Of a stretch of 59,614 bases of DNA, positions 7,127 to 38,134 are shown piece by piece. Origin of the DNA: Candidatus Aenigmatarchaeota archaeon (GTDB taxonomy: Archaea > Aenigmatarchaeota > Aenigmatarchaeia > QMZS01); assembly GCA_016932615.1 (NCBI GenBank), contig JAFGCN010000003.1:1-59614 (forward strand), given 5' to 3'. The notes below the pieces were generated by a model, which made no database searches, was not told the origin of the DNA, and saw nothing but the letters and a program-made list of their open reading frames with translations. The first letter of the stretch is position 1. Every line of letters begins with the position of its first letter. A program made the translations under genes and the position numbers.

Positions 7127-9397
7127 TTATTTCTTCTTCTTTTCAAGCTTTGCGACATTCAGTTTTGTCTGAAGGAACACGTCCGGGTTGACCGAAATGG
7201 TGTCGATCTTGTTGTCCAGAAGGAACTTTACGTACTCGGGGTACTTTGAAGGCGCCTGTCCGCATATCCCAACCGGCCGCTTGTATTTGTGGGCGACTTT
7301 TATGAGGTTCTCTATTGAAATTTTTACTGCGTCATTTCTTTCGTCAAAAGCGAGGCCCTCATTGTCCCTGTCCATTCCAAGAGTAAGCTGTGTCAGGTCG
7401 TTTGAGCCGATCGAAAACCCGTCAAAGATTTTCGCAAACTGGTCGGCCAAAATGATGTTTGAGGGAATCTCCGCCATCACATATACCTTAAGCTCTTTTC
7501 TGAGCCCTGCTTCCTCGATGATTTTCAGGACATTTTTTCCTTCATCGATTGTCCTGCAGAAGGGAATCATGACATCTACATTCTTAAGCCCCATTTGCCT
7601 TCTGACTTTCTTTATTGCCTCAAGCTCCAGCATGAATGCCGGCTTGAATTTGGGGTCAATGTACCTTGAAGCGCCACGCCAGCCCATCATAGGGTTTGAC
7701 TCCATTGGCTCGTATTCTTTTCCGCCCTTAAGGTTCGCATATTCATTTGTCTTGAAGTCAGAGAACCTTACAATAATCTGCCCCGGATGAACCGAAACTG
7801 CCAAAAGCGCAATGCCTTCTGCAAGCTTGTCGATGTACTCCTGTGACTTTCCGTTCTTTATGGCGTAAAGCGGGTGCATCTCTATGTGAGATGCGATAAT
7901 GTTTTCCTCCCTTGCCAGCCCTACGCCATCCGGCTGGAATGAAGCAAGGTCGAACGCCTTTTCAGGGGTTGCAAGTATAAACATGACTTTTGTCTTGGTC
8001 TTTGGAAGGTCGTCCAGGGAAATCTTATTTACCTCGAAATCAATCTTTCCATTATAAACTGCGCCAGAGGACCCTGTTGTGTCAATGGTTACGACCTGGC
8101 CGTCTTTAAGGACTCTCATGGCTCCTTCAGCGCCGACAATGCAGGGAACTCCAAGCTCCCTCGAAACAATTGCTGCGTGGCTTGTTGAGCCGCCCCTTTC
8201 AGTAATGATGCCGGCTGCAATTTTCATTATTGGCTCCCAGTCGGGGTTTGTAATCGAACTTACCAAAACTTCGCCTGGCTTGAACTTTCCAATCTCACTT
8301 ATGTTCTTGATGATGTGGACTTTTCCGGAACTTATCTTCTTTCCAACTGAAATCCCCTGGAGGATTGTTTTTCCACTTCCCTTAAGTTTGTACTCCTCGA
8401 TGACCTTGTGCTTTGACTTGTTCGAGTGGACTGTTTCAGGCCTTGCCTGGACAATATATAATTTTCCGTCGACCCCGTCCTTTGCCCATTCTATGTCCAT
8501 TGGGGTCTTGTAATGTGCCTCAATTGCCATTGCATATTTCCCGAGCTCTTCAACTTCCTTGTCGGAAAGCACGAATGCCCTGACTTCAGAAGCAGGAACT
8601 TTTGCTTCCTTTGTGCCGGTTTTTCCATAGATAAGCTTGATTTTTTTCTCGGATGGCTTTTTCATTATGACTTTTCCTGTTGGCTTGAAAACATAGAATG
8701 AGTCTGGCTTCACCGTTCCCTGTACAATGTACTCGCCAAGCCCCCAGATTCCGTCAATGCTCACCACATTGTTAAACCCCGTGTTCGGGTCAATCGTAAA
8801 CATGACACCTGAACAGGCAAGGTCAGACCTCACCATTTTCTGGACGGCTATGGAAAGCTTGACTGAGAACTGGTCAAAACCCTTGTCTGCCCTGTAAGAG
8901 ATTGCCCTGTCAGTAAAGAGAGATGCGTAGCCCCTGACGACACATTCCAGAAGCTCCTTTTCGGTCTGGACATTTAAGTAGGATTCCTGCTGGCCTGCAA
9001 AGCTTGCGTCAGGCAGGTCTTCGGCAGTTGCAGACGACCTTACGGCGACACTGCCCTTGCTTCCGGCAAGAAGCCCTTTGAACGCAACCAGGATTTCATT
9101 TTCCAGCTTTTCAGGAAGCTTTGATTTTTCTATGATGGACCTGACCGCTTTTCCCTTGCTCCTCAGGTTGTTCATATTGGTTGTGTCAAGGTCTTTCAAA
9201 AGTTCCTTAATCATCCTGTCAAGGTTGTTTTCCTTTATGAATAAGTCGTAAGCTTCAGCAGTGATTGCAAAGCCGTTTGGAATCCTTACTCCTTTTTTTG
9301 ACAATTTGCAATACATTTCACCAAGCGACGCATTCTTGCCTCCAACAATCGGGACATCCTTGTACGAGATTTGTGAAAAGGGTATTATCAATTTCAT
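7127..9397 (-). CDS. ppsA: Phosphoenolpyruvate synthase (pyruvate, water dikinase)
   Basis: 756 residues, full length for PpsA, which converts pyruvate + ATP + water to PEP + AMP + phosphate at the entry to gluconeogenesis. The N-terminal ATP-grasp domain (about 1-330) has the GGKNASLGEM start and the SVAVRSSATAEDLPDASFAG loop. The phosphohistidine domain has ERGGSTSHAAIV with catalytic His near residue 405. The C-terminal PEP-binding barrel ends with GICGQAPS. The lysine-rich tail is short. An AT-rich stretch with AAAGTATATATAC-type sequence (about 9405-9421) upstream is the likely promoter. Confidence 0.95.
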   Translation of the reverse strand: MKLIIPFSQISYKDVPIVGGKNASLGEMYCKLSKKGVRIPNGFAITAEAYDLFIKENNLDRMIKELLKDLDTTNMNNLRSKGKAVRSIIEKSKLPEKLENEILVAFKGLLAGSKGSVAVRSSATAEDLPDASFAGQQESYLNVQTEKELLECVVRGYASLFTDRAISYRADKGFDQFSVKLSIAVQKMVRSDLACSGVMFTIDPNTGFNNVVSIDGIWGLGEYIVQGTVKPDSFYVFKPTGKVIMKKPSEKKIKLIYGKTGTKEAKVPASEVRAFVLSDKEVEELGKYAMAIEAHYKTPMDIEWAKDGVDGKLYIVQARPETVHSNKSKHKVIEEYKLKGSGKTILQGISVGKKISSGKVHIIKNISEIGKFKPGEVLVSSITNPDWEPIMKIAAGIITERGGSTSHAAIVSRELGVPCIVGAEGAMRVLKDGQVVTIDTTGSSGAVYNGKIDFEVNKISLDDLPKTKTKVMFILATPEKAFDLASFQPDGVGLAREENIIASHIEMHPLYAIKNGKSQEYIDKLAEGIALLAVSVHPGQIIVRFSDFKTNEYANLKGGKEYEPMESNPMMGWRGASRYIDPKFKPAFMLELEAIKKVRRQMGLKNVDVMIPFCRTIDEGKNVLKIIEEAGLRKELKVYVMAEIPSNIILADQFAKIFDGFSIGSNDLTQLTLGMDRDNEGLAFDERNDAVKISIENLIKVAHKYKRPVGICGQAPSKYPEYVKFLLDNKIDTISVNPDVFLQTKLNVAKLEKKKK

Positions 9398-9452
9398 AAT
9401 AATATTGAAAAAAGTATATATACTCTTTGGAGATTTTTTGTTTCAAGAATCG

Positions 9453-9965
9453 CTAGTTTTTGTAAATTCTTTTAATAGCATCAATCCAGAATTTTACAAG
9501 TTCCCTGTCGGTGTCGATGAGGAGAACCTGCCTTAAGCGGGTGGGCTTGTGGAGGGAGATTTCCTGGACCATTATTTCGGCGGCTTTTTCTTTTGGAAAA
9601 TTCCCCACTCCTGTTCCCATGCCGGGAAAGGCAATTTTGTCTGAGCAGTTTTCCTCTGCGCATTTCAGGGCGGCTTGGGTTGCCTTTCGAAGGTCATCTT
9701 CTTTTGCCCTGCTGATTGGTTTTTTCATTGTAGGGGCGTGGATTACGAGCCGGGCTTTTAGCTTTCCGCCGCTTGTGGCAACTGCGCTTCCCACCGGAAT
9801 AGGCGCGTGTCTTACTGCCTCTTCTTCTATCCTGCGCCCGCCTTTATCCAGAATGGCTTTGGCTACTCCTCCCCGCATCGTTCCATAGCTGTTTGCCGGG
9901 TTTACGATAGCATCAACGCCTGCTTCGGTAAGGTCTCCTTGCCATGCCTTGACTTCTAAAATCAT
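9453..9965 (-). CDS. Macro domain protein (ADP-ribose hydrolase/deacetylase type)
   Basis: 170 residues of one macro domain, which binds ADP-ribose or O-acetyl-ADP-ribose. Diagnostic motifs: QGDLTEAGVDAIVNPANS near the N-terminus, GGVAKAI, and the glycine-rich PGMGTGVG loop. The start is fixed by the conserved strand, which means its first 53 bases overlap the 3' end of the upstream pseudouridine synthase gene in another frame. Likely translated from the same message. Confidence 0.9.
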   Translation of the reverse strand: MILEVKAWQGDLTEAGVDAIVNPANSYGTMRGGVAKAILDKGGRRIEEEAVRHAPIPVGSAVATSGGKLKARLVIHAPTMKKPISRAKEDDLRKATQAALKCAEENCSDKIAFPGMGTGVGNFPKEKAAEIMVQEISLHKPTRLRQVLLIDTDRELVKFWIDAIKRIYKN

Positions 9966-33243: not shown

Positions 33244-33375
33244 ATAGCCCCGCCAGGAGATTCGAATTTTTTTCTTTGGGGTTGTAAGACCTTTCTTTCT
33301 TAAAGAAAGGGATTTCTTCGAACCTGGGTCATGAGATCCAGAGTCTCATATGCTTGGCCGCTACACCACGGGGCT
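33244..33375 (-). tRNA. tRNA-Gln(CTG) with intron in the T-loop
   Basis: On the minus strand the acceptor stem AGCCCCG (from 33375) pairs with CGGGGCT (33245-33251), discriminator A. U8 is present, the D-arm GTGT/GCAT fits, and the anticodon stem TGAGA/TCTCA encloses CTCTGGA, giving anticodon CTG. The T-stem CCAGG (33323-33327) pairs with CCTGG (33252-33256), but the loop is interrupted by about 59 bases. CCA is not encoded. The mature tRNA would be 73 bases before CCA addition. Confidence 0.88.
33258..33316 (-). other. Candidate tRNA intron at position 59/60
   Basis: Removing 33258-33316 restores a 7-base T-loop. The insert contains a self-complementary CTTTCTTTAAGAAAG and is bordered by a TTCGAA repeat that also occurs in the T-loop, so the exact splice points are uncertain by a few bases. 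A canonical bulge-helix-bulge was not clearly drawn by eye. Confidence 0.6.
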
Positions 33376-33470
33376 ATAACTTAATTAGCCGTTGCTTTTT
33401 TAAGTGACCTTTTTTGGCGGAAAAACACCCTCCAAATGCAGTAATATACGATTTTGCCGGAAGGTTATCT

Positions 33471-35324
33471 ATGAAGGAAGGGCTTTCGACCCGGAGGATG
33501 AGGAAAAAGAAGGAGAGTTCCAGTAAATATGAGGAAATCCCGCGGGAAGTCAAGACAGGGGGACAGTACCTTACTTACCTGATTGTAGGCGGTTTTGGAG
33601 TCCTGATTAACCTTGCAATTACATTTGCCCTCTCAGAGTTCTTCCTTGGGCGGCAGCTCTACCTGCAGGCATTTGCCATCGGAACCTGCGTAAACTTAAT
33701 CTACAATTTCATTTTTTATTCCCGCTTTGTGTTCAGGAGCGGGCAGATTTCCGGTGAAAACCGCAATTTTTTCTTCATATTCAGCATAACTTCCGTTTTT
33801 GGGCAGATTTTTTCAAGCAAAATTGTCGTGGATTTCCTGGGGCTGGACTATTATATTTTTGGAATCGCTTCGGTGATCCTTGCGTTTTCCCTTATCAGCT
33901 TTTTCATGTTTAAAAAATATGTTTTTGTCTCTAAGCGGATAATCCCGAGGACTTACGCAATTTATGCGGTTTTCCTGGCAGTGGTGCTGATGCTGCGGAT
34001 TGCCTCGATGGGCGGGTTTGTTTTTTGGGACGAGGCGATTTACGTGGGTATGGGGAAGTATTTCTATTCAAACGAGCAACTAGGGCTTTTTGAGGATTTC
34101 CGGCCCCCCCTTCTACCAGTCATTCTCGGCTTTGCCTGGTCTAACGGAATAGACTCGATTGTTTTTGGTAAGGTTCTTGCGCTTATCTTAAGCGCGTCTT
34201 CGGTTTACCTTGTCTATCTCATCGGGAGGGAATTATTCAATGAGCGTGTTGGAGTATTGGCGGCTCTGATGCTTGCGGTTTCACCGACATTTATCTTCTA
34301 CGGGACGAGGATACTCACAGATAACTTTTCCCTCTTCTTTGTCCTGCTCGCGTTTTACCTGCATATATGGAAGCGGAATCCCATTCTTTCCGGCTTTGTC
34401 GCGGGGGTCGGTGTTCTGGTAAGGTTCACAGGCGGGCTTGTCCTGCTACCCATAGCCATGTTTGAGGTTTTTGAGTTTCTCAGGCACAGAAAAGGGCTTG
34501 AGCTATTCAGGAATATATTTTACCTGGGACTTGCGTTTCTCATACCCCTGGCACCATACCTGATGTACAATTACGGGCTTTACGGAAATCCTGTGCACGG
34601 GTTTATTGAGGGAGTGAAGATAATCGGCCTTGTTGGAGCATCTTTTCAGGATCCGGCATGGTACTATGCAGCGGGGCTTCTCGGAGAGTCTGTGTTTTCT
34701 TTTGTGTTCCTTCTTGGACTTGGGTTTCTGGCCCGGGACGGAAAGGGGACAAACAAATATGCCTTCCTCTGCGCCCTTTTCGCTCTTGCAAGCATCTTCT
34801 ACTTTTCGACACTTGGCAGAAAGGAGATGAGGTACACGATTGCCACGCTTCCCTTTATCTATATTGTCTCTGCCTATGCGCTTGACCGGCTCAAGCTAAG
34901 CGACGTTTCAAAGAAAGGAATACTTCTTGTCTGGCTGCTCCTTGCCCTTTTCCAGGGTGTCGTTGGCTCCATGGCTTACCACACTTATATGGTTGCGCCG
35001 TATGACGAGGACCTGTACCAGAATTACTACCACAAACAATCTTCGGGGCTTGTGGTTTTGTCTGACCCCGTTCCGATTGCCTACTCTGACTTTAATCATG
35101 AGATTATCTATCGGATAGGGCCGGATATGTACAGATACTACGAAATTATGGAGCCATCCGAGTACCGCATCAACACCTGCGAGCCGTTCTGCCCGCCGGC
35201 AGATATAAATTGCGAGGAGAACCGGAACAATTTCATAAGCAAGCTGAAGCTCTACCTCAACACGGTCTTCTATAAAGAAGTAAATGGGTGTGAATATTAT
35301 GTCTTCGCCAGGAGATCTTCTTAG
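33471..35324 (+). CDS. GtrA domain - ArnT/PMT-like GT-C glycosyltransferase fusion
   Basis: 617 residues from the ATG at 33471; TATA-like TAATATACG (33442-33450) excludes the earlier TTG at 33414. Residues about 20-145 are a four-helix GtrA domain (VGGFGVLINLAITFALSEFFLG). The rest is a membrane GT-C enzyme of the GT39/GT83 type: FWDEAIYVGMGKY carries the catalytic Asp-Glu after the first helix, followed by RPPLLPVI and GRELFNERVG. It would transfer a sugar from a polyprenyl phosphate donor outside the membrane. First gene of a probable operon with UbiA, PAP2 and GtrA genes. Confidence 0.85.
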   Translation: MKEGLSTRRMRKKKESSSKYEEIPREVKTGGQYLTYLIVGGFGVLINLAITFALSEFFLGRQLYLQAFAIGTCVNLIYNFIFYSRFVFRSGQISGENRNFFFIFSITSVFGQIFSSKIVVDFLGLDYYIFGIASVILAFSLISFFMFKKYVFVSKRIIPRTYAIYAVFLAVVLMLRIASMGGFVFWDEAIYVGMGKYFYSNEQLGLFEDFRPPLLPVILGFAWSNGIDSIVFGKVLALILSASSVYLVYLIGRELFNERVGVLAALMLAVSPTFIFYGTRILTDNFSLFFVLLAFYLHIWKRNPILSGFVAGVGVLVRFTGGLVLLPIAMFEVFEFLRHRKGLELFRNIFYLGLAFLIPLAPYLMYNYGLYGNPVHGFIEGVKIIGLVGASFQDPAWYYAAGLLGESVFSFVFLLGLGFLARDGKGTNKYAFLCALFALASIFYFSTLGRKEMRYTIATLPFIYIVSAYALDRLKLSDVSKKGILLVWLLLALFQGVVGSMAYHTYMVAPYDEDLYQNYYHKQSSGLVVLSDPVPIAYSDFNHEIIYRIGPDMYRYYEIMEPSEYRINTCEPFCPPADINCEENRNNFISKLKLYLNTVFYKEVNGCEYYVFARRSS

Positions 35325-36159
35325 GTTGATGCGACCCAGGCAGTGGTACAAGAACTTGTTTGTTTTCGCTGCCGCTTTCTTTTCAGGAAACCTGTTTGAC
35401 ACTCACCTTATGGCCTTGAGCTTTATCGGATTTGTCTCACTATGCCTGGTTTCGTCCGCCAACTACGCGCTAAATGATGCGATAGATTTTCAAAGGGACA
35501 AGCTGAACCCCGAGAAAAGAATCCGGCCGATTGCTTCCGGCAAGGTTTCAAGACGGGCGGGCACCGCTTTTGCGCTTGTCCTATATGCCATTGGAATGTC
35601 GGCAGGGTATTTTCTGGGCTTGGAATTTCTTTCGATTCTTGCCTTCTTCTCAGCCCTGACAATTTCCTACTCAGTGTACTTCAAGCATGTCGCCTTTCTG
35701 GATATAATCTTCATTGGCATTAACTTTGTCCTGAGGGCAGTTGCAGGCGTTCTGATTATTGGGGTGGCGCTTAGCCCCTGGTTTTTCCTGTCCCTGTTTT
35801 TCCTGTCATTTTATCTGGTGCTTGGAAAGAGGCAGGGAGAACTCCTGTTCCTTGGCAAGAAGGCGCCAAAACATAAGCCGGTCCTGGCGGTTTACGATAT
35901 CGAAATCGTGCGGGACCTCATGCAGGTTTTCATGAGTTGCCTGATAATCCTCTACGGGCTTTACGCATTTTTTACCGAGCGCCTGTTCTTGCTCTTCCTA
36001 TATCCATTCCTCCTATATGCACTTTTCAGGTTCTACTACCTTGCAAAAATCGGCCACCCTGCTTCAAGGGAGCTTGAAAGGGCTTTTCTTGACAGAGGGT
36101 TTCTTGCAAGCGCCGTTCTTTTTGGCATAGGTCTTTTTTTGGGGCTTTATGTATTATGA
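35299..36159 (+). CDS. UbiA-family decaprenyl-phosphate phosphoribosyltransferase-like enzyme
   Basis: 286 residues from the ATG at 35299 (35284 is also possible), overlapping the previous stop. Eight or nine transmembrane helices. The Asp-rich motif NDAIDFQRDKLNPEKRIRP followed by IASG is that of DPPR synthase (mycobacterial Rv3806c), which joins PRPP-derived ribose-5-phosphate to polyprenyl phosphate, rather than that of ubiquinone or heme prenyltransferases. The neighbours (PAP2, GtrA, GT-C) support the same pathway. Confidence 0.82.
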   Translation: MSSPGDLLRLMRPRQWYKNLFVFAAAFFSGNLFDTHLMALSFIGFVSLCLVSSANYALNDAIDFQRDKLNPEKRIRPIASGKVSRRAGTAFALVLYAIGMSAGYFLGLEFLSILAFFSALTISYSVYFKHVAFLDIIFIGINFVLRAVAGVLIIGVALSPWFFLSLFFLSFYLVLGKRQGELLFLGKKAPKHKPVLAVYDIEIVRDLMQVFMSCLIILYGLYAFFTERLFLLFLYPFLLYALFRFYYLAKIGHPASRELERAFLDRGFLASAVLFGIGLFLGLYVL

Positions 36160-36671
36160 AGTGGATGCGGCACCTGGACCACTATGTAAACGAGATTCTT
36201 GAGCAGGTGACAAGCTTTGGCGGGATGTTCTTTCACTTGTTCCTTATTTGCTTCATGTTTGCCTTGGGCGAAATAATTCTCTCTCTTCAGCTTTTTGCTT
36301 CTTTCATTCTTACATATGCAGTTACTTTGGTGCTGCGGCTTGCACACTTTCGGGACAGGCCCAAAAAACTGGCTTACTCGAACATAATCGAGAAGGTTGA
36401 GGCATCCTCCTTTCCAAGTCTCCACTCGATGAGGGTCTCTGCGATTTTCTGCCTGTTCTACCTTTTTTACGGCCCGGGGCTGGTTTCCTTAATCTTTCTT
36501 GGGACCGCTTTGGCGGTTTTTTTGAGCAGGCACTGGCTTAAAAAGCATCACCCAAGTGACATTCTTGCCGGTGCAATTCTGGGCGTCCTTGTGGGAATCT
36601 TTGTAGCCGGGCTTGGGTTTGGTGGCTTGGAATCTCTGGTAGAATCTGTTGTGTTGGGTGTGGCTGGCTGA
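36156..36671 (+). CDS. PAP2-family phosphatase
   Basis: 171 residues, about five helices, ATGA overlap with the UbiA gene. The PAP2 triad of motifs is present: RDRPKK (about 66-71), SSFPSLHSM (about 84-92), and SRHWLKKHHPSD (about 124-135). By position it matches Rv3807c, the phosphatase that removes the 5-phosphate from polyprenylphosphoryl-5-phosphoribose. General undecaprenyl-PP phosphatase activity is the alternative. Confidence 0.85.
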   Translation: MKWMRHLDHYVNEILEQVTSFGGMFFHLFLICFMFALGEIILSLQLFASFILTYAVTLVLRLAHFRDRPKKLAYSNIIEKVEASSFPSLHSMRVSAIFCLFYLFYGPGLVSLIFLGTALAVFLSRHWLKKHHPSDILAGAILGVLVGIFVAGLGFGGLESLVESVVLGVAG

Positions 36672-36696
36672 TGGTTTCTCGAAAGGTTGAGGGGTT

Positions 36697-37140
36697 ATGA
36701 TTATGGTAAGGGGAAGCCTGAGCATAAAAGACCGGATAAGAGACGGCATATTCTGCTACTTTGGAGCCCAGTTCATAAAATATAACCTTCTGGGCATGAT
36801 TGGCTTTTTGCTTAACCTGGGAGCTACCTTTGCGCTGGCGGAATTTTTTCTTGGGCGTGAAAGTTACCTTGTTGCCTTTTTAATAGGAAACATAATCAAC
36901 ACGTTTTATAACTATCTGGTTTATGTCAGGCATGTCTTTCCTGTAAAGGGGCTTAGTGACGTCAAGAAGGCTTTTTTCTTCGTCTATTCGGGAGGGGTCA
37001 TACTCTTGCAGATGTTTTTTGCAGACAGGATTGTATTGTTCGTGGGGCTTGATTGGTACCTTCCCGTTCTGGCCTTGGTGATTGGCGCAATCGGCACATT
37101 CAGCTACTTTGTGTTCAAAAGTCACTTGTTTACTTCCTGA
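36697..37140 (+). CDS. GtrA-family membrane protein
   Basis: 147 residues, four transmembrane helices: KYNLLGMIGFLLNLGATFAL, then two pairs of helices ending FVFKSHLF. GtrA proteins help move polyprenyl-phosphate sugars across the membrane; the mycobacterial Rv3789 relative works beside DPPR synthase. It is clearly related to the N-terminal domain of the fusion protein at 33471. It follows the PAP2 gene by 25 bases; the ATG at 36703 is an alternative start. Confidence 0.85.
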   Translation: MIMVRGSLSIKDRIRDGIFCYFGAQFIKYNLLGMIGFLLNLGATFALAEFFLGRESYLVAFLIGNIINTFYNYLVYVRHVFPVKGLSDVKKAFFFVYSGGVILLQMFFADRIVLFVGLDWYLPVLALVIGAIGTFSYFVFKSHLFTS

Positions 37141-37180: not shown

Positions 37181-38134
37181 ATGAGGCCGAGAATAGTTCG
37201 GATGGCTTTGATACTTCTTCTTGCAGTATCAGTAATCGTACTCAACCAGTATTTTCCAAACCCTCTTTTTCCAAAGCTATACTACAGCACTCTTGCCTTT
37301 GCGGTAACCTATGGGTTTTTCAGCATATTTATCTACTCTTCCGCCAAAAAGCGGCTTGCCGACAAGAAGGCAGTTTATTCCTTCAGGAAAGTTCTTTCAG
37401 CCATTCACCTTCTTGTGCTGTCCGCGCTTCTCATCCTGATATGGGTTGAAGACCCGTTTTCTGTCCTAATAGCTTACGGCATTATCGGTGCCGGCGCGGC
37501 AATAGCTCTTCAGGACGTTTTCAAGAGCGTAGCTGGCGGGATATTCATATTCGTTGCCAAGCCCTTCCGGGTCGGAGACCGGATTTCCATAAACTCCCGC
37601 ACAGGAGATGTGATGGATATTGGGCTTTTCTATACCACTCTTCTTGAAACCGGCGGGTGGATAAAGGGAGACCAGCCATCAGGGCGGCTGATTATCGTAC
37701 CAAACAATGCGGTCCTTTCCCAGGGGCTTGACAACTACACGAAAGACCATGAGTTCATATGGGATGAGATTACTCTCCCGATTACCTATGACAGCGACTG
37801 CAAGGAAGCCCAGAAAATACTGCTTTCTCTTGTTTCCCGTGAGACGAAGCAGGCCGTGGGAAGGGCGAACAAGGAGATTTCGAAGCTTGAGGAAAAATAC
37901 TACCTTGAGGCGAAAGCGACGGAGCCGTCGGTTTTTGTCAAGCTTACCGACAACTGGATTGAGCTGGGGGTGAGGTACATTACTGAAACAAGAAGGAGGC
38001 GCGCTACAAACAGCTATCTGAGCCAGCTAATCCTGGAGGCGATTAAAAAATCGAAAAATGTCAGGATTGCTTCTGAGACAATAGATGTTTCGGTCAGCCG
38101 GGCCGCCCGAAGGAAGAAGAAATCGGGCGTGTAA
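37181..38134 (+). CDS. MscS-family mechanosensitive channel
   Basis: 317 residues from the ATG at 37181. Three or four N-terminal helices, then the MscS pore helix and beta domain: GAGAAIALQDVFKSVAGGIF followed by KPFRVGDRI, and a VPNNAVLSQG strand. The cytoplasmic cage ends with a basic tail. It should release solutes on osmotic downshock. It has its own promoter and probably does not belong to the preceding operon. Confidence 0.9.
   Translation: MRPRIVRMALILLLAVSVIVLNQYFPNPLFPKLYYSTLAFAVTYGFFSIFIYSSAKKRLADKKAVYSFRKVLSAIHLLVLSALLILIWVEDPFSVLIAYGIIGAGAAIALQDVFKSVAGGIFIFVAKPFRVGDRISINSRTGDVMDIGLFYTTLLETGGWIKGDQPSGRLIIVPNNAVLSQGLDNYTKDHEFIWDEITLPITYDSDCKEAQKILLSLVSRETKQAVGRANKEISKLEEKYYLEAKATEPSVFVKLTDNWIELGVRYITETRRRRATNSYLSQLILEAIKKSKNVRIASETIDVSVSRAARRKKKSGV

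Follow-up and report, generated by a model that had tools for sequence, protein, structure and literature searches.

The stretch of DNA analysed here (the window; 59,614 nucleotides) is the entire contig C3 of the genome of a Candidatus Aenigmatarchaeota archaeon (1.26 Mb, 97% complete). Between positions 33471 and 37140 it carries an operon of four plus-strand genes encoding a GtrA–glycosyltransferase C (GT-C) fusion protein, a UbiA-fold protein, a PAP2 membrane phosphatase and a stand-alone GtrA protein. We propose, with a probability of about 0.6, that the products of this operon synthesize a pentofuranose, most simply ribofuranose, linked to polyprenyl phosphate, flip it outward and transfer it. 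In the first step, for which sequence and predicted fold provide good support, the UbiA protein would convert phosphoribosyl pyrophosphate (PRPP) and polyprenyl phosphate to a 5-phosphoribosyl lipid. The PAP2 protein may then strip off the 5'-phosphate and, alternatively or additionally, recycle the carrier lipid. Based on their family and on the fusion, the stand-alone GtrA protein and the GtrA domain of the fusion protein would carry the lipid-linked ribose outward, where the GT-C domain would pass the pentose to an acceptor, perhaps the N-glycan of an S-layer protein or another surface glycan. For all steps after UbiA, including the donor and the acceptor of the GT-C, we infer function from protein family and gene order.

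The UbiA protein and its predicted PRPP site

The second gene of the operon (35284 to 36159) encodes a predicted UbiA-fold polyprenyl-phosphate 5-phosphoribosyltransferase of the decaprenylphosphoryl-5-phosphoribose (DPPR) synthase type. Profile comparisons, predicted fold, phylogeny and PRPP-site residues together give good support for its placement in the branch of the DPPR synthase Rv3806c and not among the prenyltransferases. The protein scores 87 bits with the UbiA family of Pfam and contains exactly the motif NDAIDFQRDKLNPEKRIRPIASG, which the preliminary description had recognized as the Asp motif of DPPR synthases. When compared with NCBIfam, it reaches 178 bits with decaprenyl-phosphate phosphoribosyltransferase versus about 50 bits or less with archaeal lipid, heme and quinone prenyltransferases. 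Three further UbiA proteins are encoded in the genome, one of which (L041) displays the opposite pattern, that is, 190 bits with geranylgeranylglyceryl phosphate (GGGP) prenyltransferase and 34 bits with DPPR synthase. Rv3806c is also the top match by sequence in the PDB (E = 1e-29). An AlphaFold2 model of the UbiA protein (mean predicted local distance difference test score, pLDDT, of 96) aligned with donor-bound Rv3806c (8j8j) at a template modelling (TM) score of 0.86 and a root mean square deviation of 2.7 Å, as compared with TM scores of 0.60–0.73 for other UbiA-fold structures. The proposed kinship with Rv3806c is thus borne out by both profile and fold: the protein neither groups with prenyltransferases nor lacks the residues predicted to bind PRPP.

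The roles of the Rv3806c residues that touch PRPP, magnesium or the lipid phosphate are known from its structure (PMC10994848). R22, K28, Y70, N73, D77, D81, K87, R90, Y138 and K191 (Rv3806c numbering throughout) are invariant in the window protein and all 50 family members. K143 is likewise conserved in the window protein, and K or R occupies this position across the family; Y157 is replaced by F, as it is in nearly all family members. K28, Y70 and K191, which are specific for phosphoribose and lipid phosphate, are not retained in any of the four UbiA proteins used for comparison, of which three are encoded in the same genome.

A scan of public genome contigs with the single sequence returned no relatives; an alignment-based scan of public genomes recovered numerous relatives in bacteria and around a dozen in archaea. 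All 17 archaeal sequences used for tree construction form one clade (support 96/82), within which the window protein belongs to a four-member subclade (95/88) together with those of archaeon DeMMO3_37 (L044), archaeon clean1986 (L045) and genome G122 (L174). Recent acquisition from bacteria is unsupported, given the position of the protein inside the archaeal clade and a GC content of the operon near that of the window. A survey of 156 genomes from the same phylum found strong UbiA matches (at least 177 bits, the remainder scoring 82 bits at most) in only seven including the host, and in none of the other genomes of the host's family.

Partner genes and archaeal gene neighbourhoods

The first gene (33471 to 35324) has an alternative TTG start at 33414. 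We consider the ATG at 33471 the likelier start because a TATA-like AATATA, noticed by eye, lies about 26 bases upstream, a spacing reminiscent of leaderless archaeal transcripts. Numbered from the TTG codon, the GtrA domain of the fusion protein comprises residues 55–171 (Pfam, 36 bits) and the GT-C domain approximately residues 200–550 (68 bits with PF03901 and 54 bits with PF13231), the latter with a DExxY motif in the first loop and an RPP motif. By sequence, a profile of the GT-C matches ArnT, PIG-M, PMT and AglB, and its fold matches include ArnT, ALG9, OST, AftB and AftA; with a mean pLDDT of 65 the model is weak, so that these fold matches give the class only and not the donor. Profile and model comparisons place the domain in the ArnT/PMT/ALG class of the GT-C superfamily, and the fusion protein is a candidate for a pentosyltransferase equipped with a flippase-like domain of its own. 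Since a single STT3/AglB is encoded in the genome, N-glycans are a possible acceptor.

The third gene (36156 to 36671) encodes the PAP2 membrane phosphatase, a candidate 5'-phosphatase of the phosphoribosyl lipid. It scores 60 bits with the Pfam family and has kept the motifs R-x6-RP, PSLH and SR-x6-HxxxD. A sequence search of the PDB with this protein gave no significant match. It is homologous to the Rv3807c-type proteins that adjoin UbiA in Actinomycetota (E about 2e-6 at Z = 1000). Of the mycobacterial set that had been put forward as the counterpart of the operon, an Rv3806c-type UbiA protein is well supported; the PAP2 protein is a homologue, and possibly an orthologue, of Rv3807c. The last gene (36697 to 37140) encodes the stand-alone GtrA protein, a candidate component of a lipid-sugar flippase; its Pfam score (21 bits) is under the cut-off of 26 bits, but it shares 43% identity with the GtrA domain of the fusion protein (E = 1e-30).

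Open reading frames, Pfam matches and the identity between the two GtrA sequences agree with the preliminary description of four overlapping or closely spaced genes: the first and second overlap by 41 bases, the second and third by 4 bases, and the third and fourth are separated by 25 bases. Genome-wide, the PAP2 protein of the operon is the sole PAP2 and its two GtrA domains are the sole GtrA domains found; all statements on absence from this genome are based on family searches run together with control genomes. The location of these genes beside the sole DPPR-synthase-like UbiA gene argues against a chance association of common families. Downstream, a gene for an MscS protein starts with ATG at 37181 and, as seen by eye, has a TATA-like stretch of its own.

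A GT-C gene is located immediately upstream of the UbiA gene in L044 and L174 as it is in the window, that is, in two of the three nearest relatives within the clade, and a C-terminal C-x-P-x-D-x-x-C region is common to the three GT-C proteins. That of archaeon DeMMO3_37 (L044, 706–3186) has a C-terminal DUF2334 domain. In L173 (genome G150, 7768–9557), a gene for PRPP synthetase (TIGR01251, 222 bits) directly follows the UbiA gene with an overlap of 43 bases, which supports PRPP as the donor independently of the UbiA sequence itself; DUF362 and LPG-synthase-type genes adjoin this pair. Rv3806c-type UbiA genes clustered with genes for DUF362, PHP-domain and LPG-synthase-type membrane proteins are present in L052 and in L050, L053, L063, L070, L079 and L103, the last six being records labelled Thorarchaeota or Lokiarchaeota. 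PHP and membrane-protein genes are also located near UbiA in L055, and a DUF362 gene in L075. In lineages that carry it, the PHP protein could serve as the phosphatase and the LPG-synthase-type membrane protein as the flippase, and this cluster may represent another version of the pathway in archaea.

Upstream of the operon, the minus strand (33244 to 33376) encodes a tRNA-Gln(CUG) whose T-loop is split by a 56-base insert between TTCGAA repeats. ARAGORN and Rfam missed the gene with its insert, and ARAGORN called it once the insert was removed; the insert resembles a tRNA intron of the non-canonical archaeal kind.

PRPP supply, identity of the sugar and alternatives

Several observations weigh against the proposed pathway. 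The UbiA protein misses the curated equivalog cut-offs of NCBIfam (178.1 of 234 bits and 166.7 of 207 bits), the cut-off of NF008977 being passed by no genome of the host phylum. The ribose-contacting residue Q135 is replaced by T in it, and K208 by P, both positions being variable across the family. Biochemical work on an archaeal family member was not found in the literature searched. In L044 and L174, PAP2 and GtrA genes are both lacking next to UbiA, which speaks against a fixed archaeal gene set containing the two. Finally, family searches of the 97%-complete genome yielded no match to PRPP synthetase (PF13793), to phosphoribosyltransferases of family PF00156 or to nicotinate phosphoribosyltransferase (NAPRTase; PF04095), which leaves the donor without a visible source in the genome.

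PF13793 is likewise absent from the five genomes of the same family that were tested. Among genomes with the same type of UbiA protein, it is present in G024, G043, G046, G150 and G156, and no match was found in G056, G122 and G157. Either the PRPP synthetase gene of the host is located in the absent 3% of the genome, or it is too divergent, or PRPP is obtained from a partner cell. A genome in which PRPP synthetase, PF00156 proteins and NAPRTase were not found suggests that nucleotides are acquired from another organism.

With respect to the transferred sugar, the FAD_binding_4 domain (PF01565) of DprE1-type proteins had no match in the genome and was detected in 13 of 14 control genomes. DprE1-type epimerization to arabinose is thus unlikely, ribose (or another epimer) fits better, and ribofuranose is the simplest outcome. 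The earlier description had seen no DprE1/DprE2 epimerase and suggested that ribose could be the sugar; the search bears this out for the DprE1-type domain, and the sugar may stay ribose. Literature searches turned up nothing pertinent on ribofuranose glycans of archaea.

The same pathway might, with a rather low probability, include an epimerization of lipid-linked ribose to arabinose, xylose or another pentose prior to transfer, catalysed by an enzyme encoded elsewhere. Known bacterial systems diversify their pentose via DprE1/E2 or an ORF13-type epimerase (PMC11127046), and by eye two NAD-dependent epimerase-like genes follow the UbiA gene in the relative G043 (L038). The lack of a detectable DprE1 domain in the genome and of an epimerase gene in the operon argue against such a step. 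Still less probable is a mixed envelope-glycosylation unit in which UbiA makes lipid-linked phosphoribose while the GT-C, GtrA and PAP2 proteins serve the transfer of dolichyl-phosphate-linked mannose or glucose and the recycling of the carrier. It would be compatible with the GT-C profile, which fits mannosyltransferases and ArnT about equally and from which the donor cannot be read, and with a weak match of the genome's only PAP2 protein to the undecaprenyl-diphosphatases of NCBIfam (42 bits, below the cut-off). However, the operon is devoid of a gene for GtrB or dolichyl-phosphate-mannose synthase, and the GT-C gene, with its common C-terminal region, is found just upstream of UbiA genes of the same subclade in three genomes. 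It is very improbable that the UbiA protein is a conventional prenyltransferase for archaeal lipids or quinones, although it has the superfamily and the NDxxDxxxD motif in common with these enzymes. This reading was rejected, as profile, fold, tree and PRPP-specific residues contradict it and the genome encodes another UbiA paralogue that is of the GGGP type.

Comparison with known systems and implications

We propose that the operon functions in the manner of the three-component pentofuranose systems of bacteria and of the early part of arabinan synthesis in mycobacteria. Its distinguishing traits are the archaeal host, other families of phosphatase and flippase, the GtrA–GT-C fusion and the apparent lack of DprE1. 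The preliminary description had taken mycobacteria as the model. Their set is indeed similar, and the three-component systems exemplified by Citrobacter youngae O1/O2 (ORF12–ORF15, GT136) likewise rank among the closest. The latter (PMC11127046) likewise combine a PRPP-dependent UbiA-type polyprenyl phosphoribose synthase with 5'-phosphatase activity, a GT-C and a candidate flippase. A HAD phosphatase fused to the synthase and a MATE-type flippase take the place of PAP2 and GtrA there; the archaeal operon is further set apart by its host and by the fusion of GtrA to a GT-C that is placed here at the superfamily level. Synthase, candidate 5'-phosphatase, candidate flippase and GT-C are thus encoded together in the operon, with phosphatase and flippase families unlike those of the three-component prototype. 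In the passages of PMC11127046 considered, archaea are mentioned once, in the title of a reference.

The mycobacterial arabinan donor pathway (Rv3806c, Rv3807c, Rv3789, DprE1/E2 and AftA/AftB/Emb) resembles the operon in its UbiA, PAP2 and GT-C proteins and in Rv3789, a candidate flippase of the GtrA/SMR type comparable to GtrA. Distinguishing features are the archaeal carrier lipid, the failure to find DprE1 and the separate clades of the UbiA proteins. In loci of Williamsia, Rhodococcus and Nocardia, the genes for PAP2 and UbiA are neighbours of one for a large membrane protein (AftB) that takes the GT-C position. Glycosylation of the GtrABC/GtcA type also combines a candidate flippase of the GtrA family with a GT-C acting on a polyprenyl-phosphate sugar, but its donor is made by a GT2 enzyme (GtrB/GtlA) from a nucleotide sugar (PMC7389260) and not, as proposed here, by UbiA from PRPP. 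In Halanaeroarchaeum sulfurireducens (HLASA_2009/2010), a PHP gene lies beside an automatically annotated decaprenyl-phosphate phosphoribosyltransferase gene, an arrangement shared with other archaeal loci of this analysis; PAP2 and GtrA are not among the neighbours listed in the part of PMC4866403 concerned.

It is tempting to speculate, at somewhat less than even odds, that archaea possess an old lineage of their own of PRPP-dependent polyprenyl-phosphoribose synthases for surface glycosylation, and that the archaeon studied here, probably host-dependent, uses the PRPP of its partner. The proteins associated with the synthase would vary between lineages, with PAP2, GtrA and GT-C in the window, PHP, LPG-synthase-type and DUF362 proteins in Thorarchaeota and others, and PRPP synthetase in G150.

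So far, lipid-linked pentofuranose donors are known in connection with the walls, O antigens and pili of bacteria; the route has been shown experimentally only in bacteria, and an archaeal pathway with such a donor was not found in the literature searched. If our proposal is correct, ribose-type sugars are predicted to occur on archaeal surfaces, and an archaeal Rv3806c-type UbiA protein with Lys28, Tyr70 and Lys191 would be a marker for such glycans in uncultured archaea including Thorarchaeota and Lokiarchaeota. A surface pathway that uses PRPP in a genome in which PRPP synthetase was not found would then directly indicate that the archaeon depends metabolically on a host.

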